A stretch of 51,782 nt of DNA from positions 1 through 51,782 of the forward strand of contig DYEV01000028.1 in assembly GCA_020725545.1 (NCBI GenBank), written 5' to 3'. The notes beneath the pieces were generated by a model. That model ran no database searches, was not told where the DNA came from, and saw nothing but the letters and a program-made list of their open reading frames with translations. This document shows, piece by piece, positions 3,646-39,936 of this stretch. Source of the DNA: Desulfobacca sp. Lineage in GTDB: Bacteria > Desulfobacterota > Desulfobaccia > Desulfobaccales > Desulfobaccaceae. The translations under genes and the position numbers were made by a program. The first letter of the stretch is position 1. Every line of letters begins with the position of its first letter.

Positions 3646-5949
3646 GTGGCCAAGGCAACCACAGAGGACCCGGCCGTTGACCGCCGGTCCCCCGAGGGTC
3701 GGCAAGAGTTCGAGGCGGCGCAGCCGGCTGGCTGGCGGCGGCCGCTCCTGCTGCTCACGGTCATCATCGCCCTGCTGGTCGTGGCCCGGGTCTTGGGGCT
3801 GGGAGAGAAGTTAGGAGCCCTGCGGGACTGGATCCAGGCTTTGGGTGCCTGGGGGCCCCTGGTCTTTTTCGTGCTCTATGTTGCCGCGGCGGTGGCAGCC
3901 ATCCCGGGCTCGGCCCTGACCGTGACCGGGGGCGTCCTCTTCGGCTCCTTCTGGGGGGTGATCCTTACCCTCCATGCCGCGACTCTCGGTGCGGCCCTGG
4001 CCTTCCTGGTCTCCCGCTCTCTGGCCCGGCAAGCCGTGGTCCGCTGGCTCGGTCAGAATAGAAATTTCCAGCGTCTGGACCGCCTCACCGCCGAACACGG
4101 CGCCATTATCGTGGCCCTGACCCGCCTTGTCCCCATCTTTCCCTATAACCTGCTCAATTATGGCTTCGGCCTGACCAAGGTGCCGTTTTGGACTTACGTC
4201 CTGTGGACCTGGCTCTGCATGCTCCCCGGGACCGTACTCTACGTGGTGGGCGCCGACGCGGTTTTTCAGGGGGTGGCCCGGGGCCAAGTACCCTGGACGC
4301 TGGTGGGGGTCTTGGTGGTGGTGCTGGCGGTCTTGACGGTCCTGGTCCGCCAAGCCCGGCAGCAGCTGCACCAGAAAGAGCTGGCGGTCCAGGCGGCAGA
4401 AACGGCTGGCCCGGCCGCGGCATCGCCGGCAATACCGGAGCTGGCCCCCGCTGATGAACACAACGAGGCCCTCTTGGCCCAGGTGCGGCCGCGCACCTGG
4501 CGCAACCCCACGCCCGCTCCCCGGTACAACCTGGTGATCATCGGCGCCGGCACCGCCGGCTTGGTCTGCGCCGCGGGGTCTGCGGGGCTGGGCGCCAAGG
4601 TGGCCCTCATTGAACGACGCCTCCTGGGCGGCGACTGCCTGAACTTCGGCTGTGTCCCTTCCAAGGCGCTCATCCGCGCCTCCCGGGCGGCCGCCGCAGT
4701 CCGGGAAGCGGCGGCCTTCGGGGTCCATGTCCCTCCGGGGGTTGCGGTTGATTTTGCCGAGGTCATGGCCCGCCTGCGTCGCTTGCGAGCCGAAATCAGC
4801 CGCCACGACTCGGTCCAGCGGTTCCAGGACCTGGGGGTGGATGTCTTCCTGGGCGCTGCCCGTTTCCGTGGCCCCGACACGGTGGAGGTGGCGGGCCAGA
4901 CCCTGCGCTTCGCCAAGGCGGTCATCGCCACCGGCGGCCGGCCGGTGCAGCCGCCCCTCCCCGGCCTGGCCGAGGCCGGTTTCCTCACCAACGAGACAGT
5001 TTTTGCCCTCACCGAAAGACCGGCGCGGCTGCTGGTCCTGGGCGGCGGCCCCATCGGCTGTGAGCTGGCCCAGGCCTTCCAGCGCCTGGGCTCCCAGGTG
5101 ACCCTGCTCCACAAATACGACCGCCTCATGAACCGGGAAGACCCGGAAGCCGCGGCCCTGGTACAGAAACAATTCCTGCAGGACGGCATGCAACTCCTGC
5201 TCAACGCCAAACCTCTGGGAGTAACCCGCACTGCCGGCGGCAAGGTGGTGCACTATGAAGCTGCGGGCCAGGCGGCCGCAATCGAAGTGGATGAAATTCT
5301 GGTGGGCGCCGGCCGGGCCCCCAATGTGGAAGGCCTCAACCTGGAAGCCGCGGGGGTGCAGTACGAGGGCGGCAAAGGCCGGGGGGTCATCGTCAACGAC
5401 CGTCTACAGACCAGCAACCCCAAGATTTACGCGGCCGGCGACGTCTGCCTGCCCTATCAGTTCACCCACCTGGCCGACGCCGCGGCCCGCCTCGTCATCC
5501 AGAACGCCCTGTTCTTCGGCCGCAAGAGATTTTCTGCCCTGACCATTCCCTGGTGCACCTACACCGACCCGGAGGTGGCCCACGTGGGTCTGGCGGAGAC
5601 CGAGGCCCGGAAAAAAGGGGTGGCTTATCAGACTTTTAGGAAGCCCTGGCGCGAGGTGGATCGGGCCATCTTGGACGGCGAGACCGAAGGGTTCGTGAAA
5701 ATCCTGGTCAAAGCCGGCACGGACAAGATCCTGGGAGCCACCATCGTCGCCCGCCATGCCGGCGAAATGATCAGCGAAGTGGCCACGGCCATGACCGCCG
5801 GTCTCGGCCTGGGCGCCCTGGCCGGCGTCATCCATCCCTATCCCACCCAAGCGGAGGCCATCCGCCAGACCGGGGACATGTATAACCGCTCCCGCTTAAC
5901 GCCCACCCTGAAACGCTGGCTGACCCGTTATCTGGCCTGGCGGCGCTAA
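3646..5949 (+). CDS. Fusion of VTT (TVP38/TMEM64, DedA-like) membrane domain with mercuric-reductase-like flavoprotein
   Basis: This 767-residue protein starts at GTG behind GAGGGGA. Residues ~32-52 form a membrane segment and ~60-235 a multi-span VTT domain (PGSALTVTGG near 87-96, then the conserved FPYNLLNYGFGL stretch). An Ala/Pro-rich linker leads to a pyridine nucleotide-disulfide oxidoreductase from ~293: FAD-binding GAGTAG (300-305), redox pair C331/C336 in GDCLNFGCVPSK, a second GGGPIG nucleotide site and a C-terminal HPYPTQAE with the catalytic His-Glu pair. Close relatives include mercuric reductase and dihydrolipoamide dehydrogenase. It lacks an N-terminal metal-binding domain and the C-terminal vicinal Cys pair of true MerA, so mercury reduction is unlikely. 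The natural substrate is unknown; a membrane-tethered thiol or quinone redox role is inference. Confidence 0.88.
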   Translation: MAKATTEDPAVDRRSPEGRQEFEAAQPAGWRRPLLLLTVIIALLVVARVLGLGEKLGALRDWIQALGAWGPLVFFVLYVAAAVAAIPGSALTVTGGVLFGSFWGVILTLHAATLGAALAFLVSRSLARQAVVRWLGQNRNFQRLDRLTAEHGAIIVALTRLVPIFPYNLLNYGFGLTKVPFWTYVLWTWLCMLPGTVLYVVGADAVFQGVARGQVPWTLVGVLVVVLAVLTVLVRQARQQLHQKELAVQAAETAGPAAASPAIPELAPADEHNEALLAQVRPRTWRNPTPAPRYNLVIIGAGTAGLVCAAGSAGLGAKVALIERRLLGGDCLNFGCVPSKALIRASRAAAAVREAAAFGVHVPPGVAVDFAEVMARLRRLRAEISRHDSVQRFQDLGVDVFLGAARFRGPDTVEVAGQTLRFAKAVIATGGRPVQPPLPGLAEAGFLTNETVFALTERPARLLVLGGGPIGCELAQAFQRLGSQVTLLHKYDRLMNREDPEAAALVQKQFLQDGMQLLLNAKPLGVTRTAGGKVVHYEAAGQAAAIEVDEILVGAGRAPNVEGLNLEAAGVQYEGGKGRGVIVNDRLQTSNPKIYAAGDVCLPYQFTHLADAAARLVIQNALFFGRKRFSALTIPWCTYTDPEVAHVGLAETEARKKGVAYQTFRKPWREVDRAILDGETEGFVKILVKAGTDKILGATIVARHAGEMISEVATAMTAGLGLGALAGVIHPYPTQAEAIRQTGDMYNRSRLTPTLKRWLTRYLAWRR

Positions 5950-6003: not shown

Positions 6004-6065
6004 GCCTGCCAATAGTAAAGACCGGCTTGGGGCAAAACCAGAACAAGGAAAGGAAAGGAAGAGCA

Positions 6066-9000
6066 GTGCTTTTCAGAATTGACCTCTGGAGCCGTTATGA
6101 ATTCCAGGGGACGCCCATTTATATCCGGGGGGATAAACCGGATTGGTTTGTCCCCAACGAGGCGGGGGAAAAGATTCTGCAGGAGCTGGCCAGAAATAGC
6201 CATCAAGGCCTGGATACGGCGGCCCGGCGGTTTTTGGCGCGGCTGCCCGACGAGCCAGTCCGGCCCTACCGGGGCCGGGCCGCACACTTGGCGAGCGAAC
6301 AATTACGGGAACTTTGGTTCCACATCACCAACCGCTGCAACCAGGCCTGCCGCCACTGTCTGTTTGCCTCCTCTCCGGCCCAGACGGCCGAACTCAGCGC
6401 CGACTGTATCCTGAAACTGGCCGCCCAAGCCCATGACCTGGGCTGCCGGGTCTTTGCTTTAACCGGCGGCGAGCCGTTGGTGCATCCCGCCTTCGAGGCC
6501 ATCGTGGACAATCTGTTGGGGTATGAAGCCACGCACGTCGTGGTCCTGACCAACGGCACCCTCCTGCCGCAGTACGCCCAGGCTCTGGGCCGTTGGCCCC
6601 GAAACCGGCTCCACCTGCAGATCAGCGTTGATGGTCTCGCGGCCAGCCATGACCTGCTGCGCGGGCAAGGCGCGTTCGCAGCTTTGCAGGCTAATTTGAA
6701 ATGGCTCAGGGAGCAGCATCGCACCTGCACCCTGGCCATGTGCGTCACTGCCGACAATGTGGTGGACATGCCTGCCTTGGTGGACTTTGCCGCTGCGCAA
6801 GGTGCCGCCAATCTCCATTTTTTATGGCATTTCCGGCGGGGGCGGGGTACTGCCAACCGTCTTGTCCCGCCTGGCGATATTTTCCCTTATTTTCTCCAGG
6901 CCGCACGGCGGGCCCAGGCGGCTGGCCTCAACATCGACAATCTGGAGGCCCTTAAGGCGCAGATCTTTGCCCCCAGCGGTACCAAACACGACGGCGCCGG
7001 CGGCGGTTGGGAATCGCTGGCCGTGGGGCCTGACGGCCGGCTATATCCCTCGCCGGCCTTGGTTGGGGTGGCGGCCCTGGCCAGTGATCTGTCTCCGGAC
7101 TTGGCCACCGCCTGGCGCCACAGCCCGATTCTGGTAAAAATCAGGGAGACCTCCGCCGCCCGGTTGAGCTCCCCCTGGCGTTTTCTGTTGGGTGGCGGTG
7201 ATCCGGATCACAGTTACTTTGCCGGTGGTGAATTGGTCGGCCAGGACCCTTACCTGCCCCTCTATGAGCAAGCGGCCCTCTGGCTCATCGCCCGGGAAGC
7301 CGCCGGTCAACCGGCGCAGAACGGCCAGCCGGGACTGCGCCTGAAGATGGGGGATATCCTGGTGAGCTGCGGGGCCCACGGCGAGGTGGCTCTGACCCAC
7401 AGCAACTGCCTGCTGACCGTGGCCAGCCCCGACAGCCGCGCCCATATCAAGGAATTTTATCAAACCACGGCGACATCCCCCCGCGAGGACATCCTCAACC
7501 CGGTTTGTTATCCGGCGGAGGTCATGGCCCACATTCCACCGCCCTACCGGTTCCGTGGTTATGGCTGCGGCAGCCCGGTCCTGGACGCCCAGCTGCGGGC
7601 CGGAGATACTGTCCTGGATCTGGGCTGCGGCACTGGTGTCGAGTGCTTCATCGCCGTACGCCTGGTAGGACCTCAGGGCCGCGTCATCGGCGTGGACATG
7701 CTGGAAACCATGTTGGAAAGAGCCGAACAGGGGGCTGCCGATGTGGCGGCCAATCTGGGGTACCGGAATCTGGAATTTATCAGAGGCTATCTGGAGGAGC
7801 TGCCGCTGCCAGCGGACTCCGTGACTGTGGTAGTGTCCAACTGCGTCATCAACCTCTCCAGCCACAAACGCCGTACTTTTGCGGAAATCTTTCGGGTTCT
7901 GCAACCCGGCGGCCGCTTGGTCATCGCCGATGTCGTCTGTGAATCGGAGCCGCCGCCGGCCATCAAGAACGACCCGGTCCTGCAGGGGGAATGTCTGGCC
8001 GGAGCCCTGACCCAACGGGATCTCTTCGGCCTCCTGGCCGAAACCGGGTTTGTAGCCGCCCGGGTTCTAAAACGCTTCCCTTATCGGGTGGTGCAAGGAC
8101 ATCGATTCTTCTCCCTGACCTATGCCGCCTATAAACCGGCCATCCAAGAGACCAGGCGGGTTATCTATCGCGGTCCCTTTGCGGCGGTCCTCACCGCCCA
8201 AGGCGATCTTTTGGAGGTGGGCCAGACCCGGGAAGTCGTTCCGGCCGAATGGCTGGCTGATCAGGAAGAGCTCTTCCTCCTGGACGAGGCCGGGGCCGTT
8301 GCCAATTTTGACCTGGCTCCGCCCGCCTGTTGCGCCGGGGCATCGACCCTCGCTTGCGAGACGCCGGCAGCAGATAATCTGGAGATGGCCGGAGCCGCGG
8401 GTGTTCCGGAAACCACGCCCCTGCCGGCAACGCGGCTCGCCTTACTTCGAGCCAACCCGGCCGATGAAACGGGCCCGGCTAAAAACGCCGTCGGCTGTTT
8501 AGTCTGCAGTGCCCCGGTTCATTATCTCACGGAGGAGGTACATCAGACCTGCGCCTTCTGTGGCTCCCGCAAGGCTGCCCAGGCCCTTTGCGCACAGGGG
8601 CATTTTATCTGCGACGCCTGTCATACCCAGGACGCAGTCGCCTTTCTGGAGCATATCTGTGAGGCGACCACCCTTACCGATATGATCCAGCTTCTCGCGG
8701 AGATCCGGCGGCATCCCAGCATACCGGTCCATGGCCCGGAGCACCACCTCATGGTGCCGGGCATCATCCTGGCCACATATCGGAACCTGGGCGGCCAGGT
8801 GCCTCGCACCATGCTCCACACCGCGTTGCGTCGCGGCCAGACCGTGCCGGGCGGCGCCTGCGCCTTTACCGGGGCCTGCGGTGCCGCCGCGGGGGTGGGT
8901 ATCGCCTTCAGCCTGCTCCTGGGCGCCAGTCCCGTAAAGGCCAGGGAACGCCAACAGGTCCAGCAGATCATCCAGGCGGTCATCCAGATCCAGGCCCGGT

Positions 9001-9167
9001 TCGCCGCGGCCCGCTGCTGCCAACGGGATAGCTGGCTGGCCTTACAGCAAGCCGCAAACTTGTCCAAAGATTATCTGCTTTTACCCCTGCAGGCGGAATT
9101 TCCCCTGCGCTGCCAGCAGGCCAGATTCAATCGGGAATGCCTGGGCAATACCTGCCCCTTGTGGTAA
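6066..9167 (+). CDS. Radical SAM / ArsM-like methyltransferase / Cys-rich DUF5714-like fusion protein
   Basis: This 1033-residue protein uses the GTG at 6066, preceded by AAGGAAAGGAAAGGAAG; a TTG at 6027 is possible but has no such site. The N-terminal part is a radical SAM domain with the cluster motif C91-x3-C95-x2-C98 and GGEP (~134-137); the SPASM-like stretch near 312-335 (VGPDGRLYPSP) has lost its cysteines. The middle part (~480-690) is a class I methyltransferase with DLGCGTG (~518-524). It matches arsenite methyltransferase ArsM, including the three arsenic-binding cysteines: YGCGSP (C501), SNCVINL (C593) and GECLAGAL (C643). The C-terminal ~220 residues hold CxxC pairs (811/814, 829/832, 849/852 with neighbours) and resemble DUF5714. 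Arsenic or other metalloid chemistry is inference; no ars regulator or pump is nearby. Confidence 0.85.
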   Translation: MLFRIDLWSRYEFQGTPIYIRGDKPDWFVPNEAGEKILQELARNSHQGLDTAARRFLARLPDEPVRPYRGRAAHLASEQLRELWFHITNRCNQACRHCLFASSPAQTAELSADCILKLAAQAHDLGCRVFALTGGEPLVHPAFEAIVDNLLGYEATHVVVLTNGTLLPQYAQALGRWPRNRLHLQISVDGLAASHDLLRGQGAFAALQANLKWLREQHRTCTLAMCVTADNVVDMPALVDFAAAQGAANLHFLWHFRRGRGTANRLVPPGDIFPYFLQAARRAQAAGLNIDNLEALKAQIFAPSGTKHDGAGGGWESLAVGPDGRLYPSPALVGVAALASDLSPDLATAWRHSPILVKIRETSAARLSSPWRFLLGGGDPDHSYFAGGELVGQDPYLPLYEQAALWLIAREAAGQPAQNGQPGLRLKMGDILVSCGAHGEVALTHSNCLLTVASPDSRAHIKEFYQTTATSPREDILNPVCYPAEVMAHIPPPYRFRGYGCGSPVLDAQLRAGDTVLDLGCGTGVECFIAVRLVGPQGRVIGVDMLETMLERAEQGAADVAANLGYRNLEFIRGYLEELPLPADSVTVVVSNCVINLSSHKRRTFAEIFRVLQPGGRLVIADVVCESEPPPAIKNDPVLQGECLAGALTQRDLFGLLAETGFVAARVLKRFPYRVVQGHRFFSLTYAAYKPAIQETRRVIYRGPFAAVLTAQGDLLEVGQTREVVPAEWLADQEELFLLDEAGAVANFDLAPPACCAGASTLACETPAADNLEMAGAAGVPETTPLPATRLALLRANPADETGPAKNAVGCLVCSAPVHYLTEEVHQTCAFCGSRKAAQALCAQGHFICDACHTQDAVAFLEHICEATTLTDMIQLLAEIRRHPSIPVHGPEHHLMVPGIILATYRNLGGQVPRTMLHTALRRGQTVPGGACAFTGACGAAAGVGIAFSLLLGASPVKARERQQVQQIIQAVIQIQARFAAARCCQRDSWLALQQAANLSKDYLLLPLQAEFPLRCQQARFNRECLGNTCPLW

Positions 9168-38919: not shown

Positions 38920-39936
38920 ATGACGCCGCCTCTCTGGGCCAACTTTCTCGCCCCCCGCTTCGCCTGGCTGCAGATTGAGGTAACCACTCACTGCAATGCC
39001 GCCTGCCGCTATTGCCCCCATACCCTGTATCGTTCCCATTGGCAGAGCCGGCATCTGCCCTTGGAGGTGTACCGGCGCTTACTGCCCACCTTCAAGAAAG
39101 TCAATCTGGTCTATCTCCAGGGCTGGGGCGAACCCTTCCTCCATCCTGATTTTTTCACGCTGGTGGCGCTCGCCCGCCAGGCCGGCTGCCGGGTCGGCGC
39201 CACCACCAACGCCACCCTGCTGACGGAGGACGTCATCAACCGCTTGGTGACTTCGGGGCTGGACATCCTGGCCTTTTCCCTGACCGGGCTCGGCGCCCGC
39301 CATGATGCCTGGCGGCCGGGCACCAGCTATGATCAGGTCCTGGACGCCATTCGCTGCCTGACTGCAGAAAAACGCCGGCAAGGCCGGGAGACCCCCCAGG
39401 TGCACATCGCCTATCTGCTCCTGCGCTCCGGCCTGCCGGACCTGGCCGACCTTCCGGAAGCGCTGGGCGGGTTAGGCATCAGCCAAGTGGTCCTCAGCAC
39501 CCTAGATCTGGTGGCCGCCCCGGAGCTTCGCCCAGAGGCCTTGAGATTGGCCGGCCCCCTCGCTTGGCAGGAAGTGCAACGGCAACTCAGTGCCGTGACC
39601 AGGGTCGGGGCGCGCCAGGGCTTAACCATCCATCCCCCGCCCCTGCCCGCCCCTGGCCGCCAGCTCGTCTGCCCCGAAAACATTCTCCGGGCTGCGGTCA
39701 TCTCAGCCGCCGGTGACCTCGCCCCCTGCGTGTACCGGAATATCCCGACAACCGGCGGCCATTTATACGGCAATGGCCCCGCCCAGCCGGTGCCGATCTG
39801 CCATTTCGGCAATATCCAGGATCGCCCTTTCCTCGAAATCTGGGGATCAGATTCCTACCGCGCCTTCCGGCGCGTCTGGCAAACAGGCCAACTGCCGCCG
39901 GACTGCCGGGATTGTCTGAGAATTAAAGTGCACTGA
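38920..39936 (+). CDS. Radical SAM protein with SPASM-like C-terminal cysteines
   Basis: This 338-residue protein has the radical SAM cluster motif C-x3-C-x2-C in TTHCNAACRYCPHT (Cys ~26, 30, 33), the GWGEPFLHPDF glycine-rich motif and a TIM-barrel-length core. The C-terminal third has several cysteines: LVCPEN, APCVYRN, PICHFGN and PDCRDCLRI, the pattern of a SPASM/twitch auxiliary Fe-S site. Such proteins modify peptides, cofactors or enzyme residues. It is 157 bases downstream of the CxxC-less fdhD gene on the same strand, across a gap with a heptamer repeat. Whether the two work together is unknown; the reaction cannot be assigned. Confidence 0.9.
   Translation: MTPPLWANFLAPRFAWLQIEVTTHCNAACRYCPHTLYRSHWQSRHLPLEVYRRLLPTFKKVNLVYLQGWGEPFLHPDFFTLVALARQAGCRVGATTNATLLTEDVINRLVTSGLDILAFSLTGLGARHDAWRPGTSYDQVLDAIRCLTAEKRRQGRETPQVHIAYLLLRSGLPDLADLPEALGGLGISQVVLSTLDLVAAPELRPEALRLAGPLAWQEVQRQLSAVTRVGARQGLTIHPPPLPAPGRQLVCPENILRAAVISAAGDLAPCVYRNIPTTGGHLYGNGPAQPVPICHFGNIQDRPFLEIWGSDSYRAFRRVWQTGQLPPDCRDCLRIKVH

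Follow-up and report, generated by a model that had tools for sequence, protein, structure and literature searches.

To our knowledge few enzymes are known which form carbon-arsenic bonds by radical chemistry, namely ArsS and ArsL. According to a review (PMC12159101), which takes the statement from Cheng 2021, ArsS adenosylates arsenic, and ArsL transfers an aminocarboxypropyl group (PMC8552651). The arsenic methyltransferase CmArsM binds arsenic through its cysteines C72, C174 and C224 and depends on them in the first methylation step, C72 being needed for that step only; the human counterpart of CmArsM C44 is likewise required in the first methylation (PMC3877260).

The gene analysed here is located at 6066..9167 on the plus strand of the window, the whole stretch of 51,782 nucleotides from a Desulfobacca sp., and joins a radical SAM enzyme to an ArsM-type methyltransferase. 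It belongs to a fusion family that is real, widespread and conserved in many anaerobic bacteria and was apparently undescribed before; a search in a literature collection with few subscription papers found no paper on such a fusion or on DUF5714. The fusion is a variant of the ArsM plus radical SAM route to organoarsenicals in which no curated score identifies the radical SAM half as ArsS.

When 85,000 genomes were scanned with the radical SAM half as query, 159 relatives were obtained in genome contigs, of which the best 80 were kept. They are mostly from Desulfobacterota MAGs, and a few are labelled Planctomycetota, Fibrobacterota (Chitinivibrionales), Myxococcales or Eisenbacteria. The fusion homologues are collinear over the full length and the order of the parts is conserved. 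With this number of relatives and the invariant cysteines described below, the arrangement goes far beyond what chance would give. Conservation is given for an alignment of 71 copies, including the window protein, which were chosen by a frame length of at least 960 residues, so that the set favours intact fusions.

Architecture of the fusion protein

By ORF analysis the frame 6027-9167 (+) is single and uninterrupted, and it contains no in-frame TGA (Sec codon). The GTG at 6066 is the likely start because AGGAAAGGAAG, a purine-rich ribosome-binding site, is found just upstream of it; the first-pass annotation therefore had the coordinates 6066-9167 right, and the protein, which has full-length collinear homologues, consists of 1033 aa. 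From the N- to the C-terminus it is composed of a PqqD/RRE-like domain, a radical SAM barrel, a SPASM-like region, an ArsM-type methyltransferase and DUF5714. The first-pass annotation had recognized a radical SAM part, an ArsM-like methyltransferase and a Cys-rich, DUF5714-like region on one polypeptide, and had proposed a Pfam profile search and a structure prediction. All three parts are matched by Pfam and NCBIfam, in Pfam as Radical_SAM (PF04055, residues 87-241, E 2.4e-19), a class I methyltransferase (PF13847, residues 511-652, E 2.2e-31) and DUF5714 (PF18978, residues 862-1033, E 9.3e-55; 185 bits compared to a gathering score of 26.2). The AlphaFold2 model of the whole chain (mean pLDDT 87.4) has an N-terminal half which resembles a peptide maturase and a middle which resembles CmArsM; DUF5714, modelled alone, is also folded confidently (pLDDT 93.4). 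Three features had gone without mention: the N-terminal PqqD/RRE-like fold, a conserved pair of linker cysteines and the accompanying arsenosugar genes.

Residues 1-75 (6066..6290, +) form the PqqD/RRE-like domain, a fold which binds peptide leaders, modelled with three strands and two helices. Pfam did not detect PqqD in the window protein itself, and PF05402 (PqqD) is significant in the homologue from genome G043 (27.6 bits compared to a cut-off of 23.4). The model of residues 6-415 aligns, from residue 6 onwards, with the sactipeptide maturase CteB (5wgg; Z 29.1, 3.6 Å, 388 residues); TigE is a further structural match of the same residues (Z 26.2) and, like CteB, covers the N-terminal region. 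The radical SAM barrel (PF04055) follows at residues 76-300 (6291..6965, +). It carries CxxxCxxC at C91, C95 and C98 (6336-6359), which is kept in 71/71 long-frame copies, and has 23 invariant positions.

Residues 301-425 (6966..7340, +) are a SPASM/twitch-like region without the cluster cysteines, and the structure match reaches residue 413-432. The stretch had been described in this way before, and the alignment of the fusion family with its stand-alone relatives agrees: the cysteines of the SPASM auxiliary clusters are present in the stand-alone relatives and replaced in the fusion family, where the replacing residues, GGGDxDH, are themselves conserved (D379 in 70/71, D381 in 71/71 and H382 in 69/71 copies). 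The further step, that a protein which has lost these cysteines is not a standard peptide modifier, does not follow from the loss alone, because residues 1-415 fold like a sactipeptide maturase including the leader-binding domain. The linker at residues 426-470 (7341..7475, +) holds C435 and C448, both present in 71/71 copies. Equivalents of both are found at the C-terminus of the stand-alone radical SAM relatives as a C..CxC tail, so the pair belongs to the radical SAM unit.

The ArsM-type methyltransferase occupies residues 471-700 (7476..8165, +). Its best solved relative by sequence is the crystallised CmArsM (4kw7, E 4.7e-39), and the model of residues 480-730 aligns with CmArsM 4fr0 at Z 27.0 and 1.8 Å with 41% identity over 216 residues. 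The motifs YGCG, SNCV and GECL, which the first-pass annotation had picked out as the contexts of the arsenic ligands, align with the CmArsM ligand cysteines 72, 174 and 224. Free variation of these cysteines had been named as an observation that would speak against a metalloid substrate; the equivalents C501, C593 and C643 do not vary in any of the 71 aligned long-frame copies. The fusion is thus like ArsM/AS3MT in its fold and in the three arsenic-ligand cysteines, and unlike it in its longer chain, in the missing conservation of the C44 equivalent and in its score against the NCBIfam arsenite methyltransferase model NF008823 (E 1.1e-62), where 212 bits are under the curated cut-off of 263. 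The C44 equivalent is column 481, with A in 26, C in 25 and H in 8 of the 71 copies, and Cys in the window protein. Since it is not conserved, the disulphide which regenerates the enzyme must arise differently; one might speculate that it is formed with cysteines of the linker or of DUF5714. Within residues 701-805 (8166..8480, +) the ArsM fold continues in the model to about residue 742 and gives way to a disordered linker. This linker has a CxC/CC motif at 754-756, whose cysteines are found in 68/71 (C756) and 59/71 (C754) copies.

The C-terminal residues 806-1033 (8481..9164, +) consist of a CxxC-rich ribbon and the helical DUF5714 domain (PF18978), with 14 cysteines which are nearly invariant in the 71 copies. 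No clear relative of DUF5714 was found in the PDB by fold (best Foldseek E 0.5) or by profile (best E 0.1), and VIA gave Z 5.6 over 139 residues at 4.6 Å, where 7-8 is typical without relatives. The fusion shares its C-terminal domain, DUF5714, with the double selenoprotein MbdU; unlike MbdU it has no Sec and is joined to radical SAM and methyltransferase parts, and it scores 122 bits against the MbdU model NF045648, compared to 600.

Gene neighbourhood and relation to ArsS

The gene upstream (3646..5949, +) codes for a protein with a VTT (TVP38) membrane domain and a MerA-like FAD disulphide oxidoreductase on one chain (Pfam and NCBIfam; neighbour clusters c2 and c3). Genes of this kind are recurrent neighbours of both fusion and ArsS loci, and one is found beside ArsS in locus L171 and another beside an ArsS-ArsM fusion in L176. 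When the neighbours of 83 loci were clustered, the commonest partners were TIGR04282/TIGR04283 glycosyltransferases, VTT-domain (TVP38) proteins and MerA-like FAD oxidoreductases. Glycosyltransferase genes of the two families are direct same-strand neighbours of the fusion in 13/80 loci, taken from the best 80 of the 159 relatives (L036, L038, L047, L052, L054, L055, L082, L084, L091, L092, L097, L112 and L115; in L092 a small predicted ORF lies between the two genes), and are also found in L164, L165 and L168. Every glycosyltransferase scanned is above the curated "arsenosugar biosynthesis" cut-offs. In the genome of the window TIGR04283 and TIGR04282 are side by side on contig 28, which is not the contig of the window. 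The first-pass annotation had left the substrate open; it is less open than was stated, because arsenosugar glycosyltransferase genes adjoin the fusion in relatives and occur in its own genome. It should be noted that this argument from context is partly circular, since TIGR04282, TIGR04283 and TIGR04169 owe their arsenosugar names to their association with ArsS.

The distribution was surveyed in 345 genomes of the phylum, with ArsS taken as TIGR04167 at E<=1e-60; ArsS is found in 107 of them and TIGR04283 in 161, and 28 genomes from 16 families have the fusion. The Fisher p-values given here are optimistic because the tested genomes are related, though 16 families are involved: TIGR04283 is present in 27/28 fusion genomes compared to 161/345 overall (5e-9), ArsS is present in 0/28 fusion genomes compared to 107/345 in the phylum (1.8e-5), the exclusion of ArsS and fusion among the TIGR04283-bearing genomes has a value of 8e-14, and ArsS is found in 3/50 further fusion genomes (1.2e-5). 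Because of these last three genomes the exclusion is strong, not absolute. The first six genomes searched had no ArsS above the cut-off, and one genus, g112, has both solutions, with the fusion in G214 and G236 and ArsS in G316. Among the 35 TIGR04283-positive genomes free of both, 7 have a stand-alone relative, G043 has a shorter radical SAM-ArsM fusion, and 27 have neither. In 19/22 fusion genomes, that of the window included, no ArsM-like protein apart from the fused domain is found at E<=1e-35. ArsM is found in only 8/22 sampled ArsS genomes of the phylum, so the substrate of ArsS in this phylum may not always be dimethylarsenite; a search for AsSugarArsM in ArsS genomes gave none above the cut-off.

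The fusion resembles ArsS in being a radical SAM enzyme, in its gene company and in the mutually avoiding distribution, and ArsS too occurs fused to ArsM. It differs by its RRE-like domain and SPASM-like region and by lacking the C-terminal CYGC...SSC pattern of ArsS, and against TIGR04167 it scores 56.5 bits where the cut-off is 300. In a radical SAM tree with long branches ArsS forms one clade (100/100) without the fusion, and a joint clade of ArsS and fusion is not rejected (p-AU 0.22); a distant kinship of the two is possible.

Canonical ArsS, above the TIGR04167 cut-off, is joined to ArsM in both orders: as ArsS-ArsM in genome G115 (L176, 2796-4802) and as ArsM-ArsS in G152 (L177, 5201-7267). 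The cassette around the latter also contains genes for TIGR04283, a rhodanese, a dicluster/VTT protein and TIGR04282, and its glycosyltransferases were located by genome search and reading of the frames. ArsM has thus been joined to a radical SAM enzyme more than once, and this is the strongest argument that both halves act on the same arsenical. In two arsenosugar cassettes (G049 and G086, the former also with TIGR04282) the place of ArsS, between a TIGR04169-like peroxidase gene and TIGR04283, is taken by a stand-alone protein that is related to the radical SAM half of the fusion and has SPASM cysteines. The first-pass annotation had named separate genes in relatives as weighing against a coupling of the parts. 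Separate genes do exist, for the radical SAM half in these cassettes and for DUF5714, which is a gene of its own directly downstream in L044, L100, L101 and L165 and is absent in L079, and they argue for one pathway, not against it.

Proposed function and alternatives

On balance we consider it probable that the protein is a single-chain ArsM plus ArsS-like enzyme which makes an arsenosugar-type organoarsenical, with a radical half that is not a recognisable ArsS and has the fold of a peptide maturase. Its genomic company suggests that both carbon-arsenic bond-forming steps which open arsenosugar synthesis are placed on one chain. This reading rests on the architecture, the invariant cysteines, the predicted folds, the co-occurrence with glycosyltransferases, the avoidance of ArsS and the independent ArsS/ArsM fusions. 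The earlier idea that methylation of a metalloid is coupled to a radical step on one chain gains from the invariant ArsM cysteines, the conserved fusion order and the arsenosugar gene context, and its link to ArsS and ArsM was a good guess.

We infer the substrate, the order of the steps, the group transferred and the roles of the linker cysteines and DUF5714 as follows. The ArsM domain would bind trivalent arsenic via C501, C593 and C643 and use SAM to methylate it, with dimethylarsenite as the probable product. A second SAM would be cleaved by the radical SAM half, which would attach a SAM-derived group to the methylated arsenic, most likely 5'-deoxyadenosyl as by ArsS. C435 and C448 are candidates for holding or handing over the methylated arsenical, the Cys-rich DUF5714 tail is a candidate thiol or metal site which may load or reduce it, and the products would pass to the TIGR04282/TIGR04283 glycosyltransferases.

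Several points speak against an arsenosugar enzyme: the partly circular context, the glycosyltransferases on another contig in the genome of the window, the 3 genomes bearing ArsS as well, a C44 equivalent which is Cys in only 25/71 copies, the RRE-like and peptide-maturase-like radical half, and ArsM in only 8/22 ArsS genomes. The main rivals are peptide modification and another metalloid substrate. A RiPP-type maturase, whose RRE-like/radical SAM/SPASM half binds a peptide for methylation or metallation by the ArsM-like half, would be in keeping with the PqqD domain of the G043 relative, with NCBIfam radical SAM matches which are mostly peptide maturases, and with CteB and TigE as the top structural matches across the N-terminal region. 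The fusion shares the fold of residues 1-415 with CteB, SkfB and TigE, but it has lost the auxiliary-cluster cysteines and is joined to a methyltransferase, and within 1 kb in about 80 loci no conserved small ORF for a precursor peptide was found, only shadow ORFs of flanking genes; with the invariant arsenic-ligand cysteines, the strong link to TIGR04283 and the avoidance of ArsS this makes peptide modification unlikely. A further possibility, to which we give little weight, is that the radical SAM enzyme derives from a peptide maturase and not from ArsS and was recruited to form carbon-arsenic bonds, with the leader-binding domain and DUF5714 carrying the arsenic from one active site to another as an adduct to a protein or peptide thiol; the arsenical would then be built on a carrier within one chain.

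The same two-step chemistry could instead have antimony, selenium or mercury as its substrate, or else a ligand bound through a thiol. The "metal-binding" selenoprotein family MbdU also contains DUF5714, MerA-like oxidoreductases are among the neighbours, and ArsM-like selenoproteins without an assigned substrate are abundant in relatives; we nevertheless find such a substrate improbable, as none of the three ArsM ligands has been lost and the fusion co-occurs with the arsenosugar genes. Arsinothricin synthesis, where a radical SAM enzyme and ArsM act in turn on one arsenic atom as predicted for the fusion, provides another model: the radical SAM half would work like ArsL and transfer the 3-amino-3-carboxypropyl group from SAM onto arsenic, and the ArsM half would methylate. 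The ArsL/ArsM pair makes carbon-arsenic bonds in such a manner (PMC8552651), and the ArsM half with the C-terminal stretch matches the arsinothricin ArsM model NF040538 (E 1.6e-50), but at 172 bits this is far under the cut-off of 500. ArsL is of a different radical SAM family, and the arsinothricin genes are separate, with arsQ, in an arsQML cluster without glycosyltransferases (PMC8552651), which leaves this product quite unlikely. That the ArsM half alone is active in plain arsenic detoxification, with a degenerate radical SAM half as scaffold, might be read from the lost SPASM clusters, but with CxxxCxxC in 71/71 copies and 23 invariant barrel positions it is very hard to believe.

If the protein is a single-chain enzyme for an arsenosugar-type organoarsenical, it would add a third, widespread layout to those of ArsS and ArsL, with the methyltransferase on the same chain as a different kind of radical SAM enzyme, and one could test directly how a toxic arsenical moves from one active site to the other. 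It would also account for the enzyme behind the arsenosugar-type gene sets of many ArsS-free anaerobes, and arsenosugar-type metabolism would then reach across much of the Desulfobacterota.

Variant forms of the fusion

The fusion found in genome G043 (locus L032, 7456-9942, minus strand) is shorter and joins only a PqqD/radical SAM part to ArsM. It has kept the SPASM cysteines and lacks DUF5714, and it is likely to be an intermediate form. DUF5714 is also absent from the 811-aa fusion of genome G025 (L029, 2336-5888, minus strand), which has a stand-alone ArsM gene directly upstream, and from the fusion copy at L079. At L079 (7334-10379), L088 (7472-11108) and L111 (6824-10313), all on the plus strand, the open frame reaches some 180-390 residues further upstream than the start of the fusion; these extensions gave no Pfam match. 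Genome G002 carries an intact fusion (L028) and, on a different contig, a broken second copy (L033, 4477-6071, minus strand) adjoining 6PGD/G6PD genes, which are also neighbours of the fusion in the window.

Radical SAM and ArsM genes, separate and joined

Stand-alone PqqD-like/radical SAM/SPASM proteins occupy the ArsS position of an arsenosugar cassette at L161 (2011-3567) and L162 (1698-3248), both on the minus strand, and appear to constitute a family without a name. The window also encodes a stand-alone radical SAM/SPASM protein unrelated to the fusion (38920-39936, plus strand). In genome G010 a different radical SAM protein and an ArsM are encoded by separate neighbouring genes (L034, 6544-8133 and 8130-9515, minus strand) with a 4-base overlap. 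Canonical ArsS is itself fused to ArsM in two genomes, in reversed order: ArsS-ArsM at L176 (2796-4802, 668 aa) and ArsM-ArsS at L177 (5201-7267, 688 aa), both on the plus strand. No ArsM-like protein was found at E<=1e-35 in 14 of the 22 sampled ArsS-bearing Desulfobacterota genomes.

Cysteine and selenocysteine

Many ArsM-like genes of several relatives contain a single in-frame TGA and are probably selenoprotein genes; members of the fusion family have cysteine throughout.
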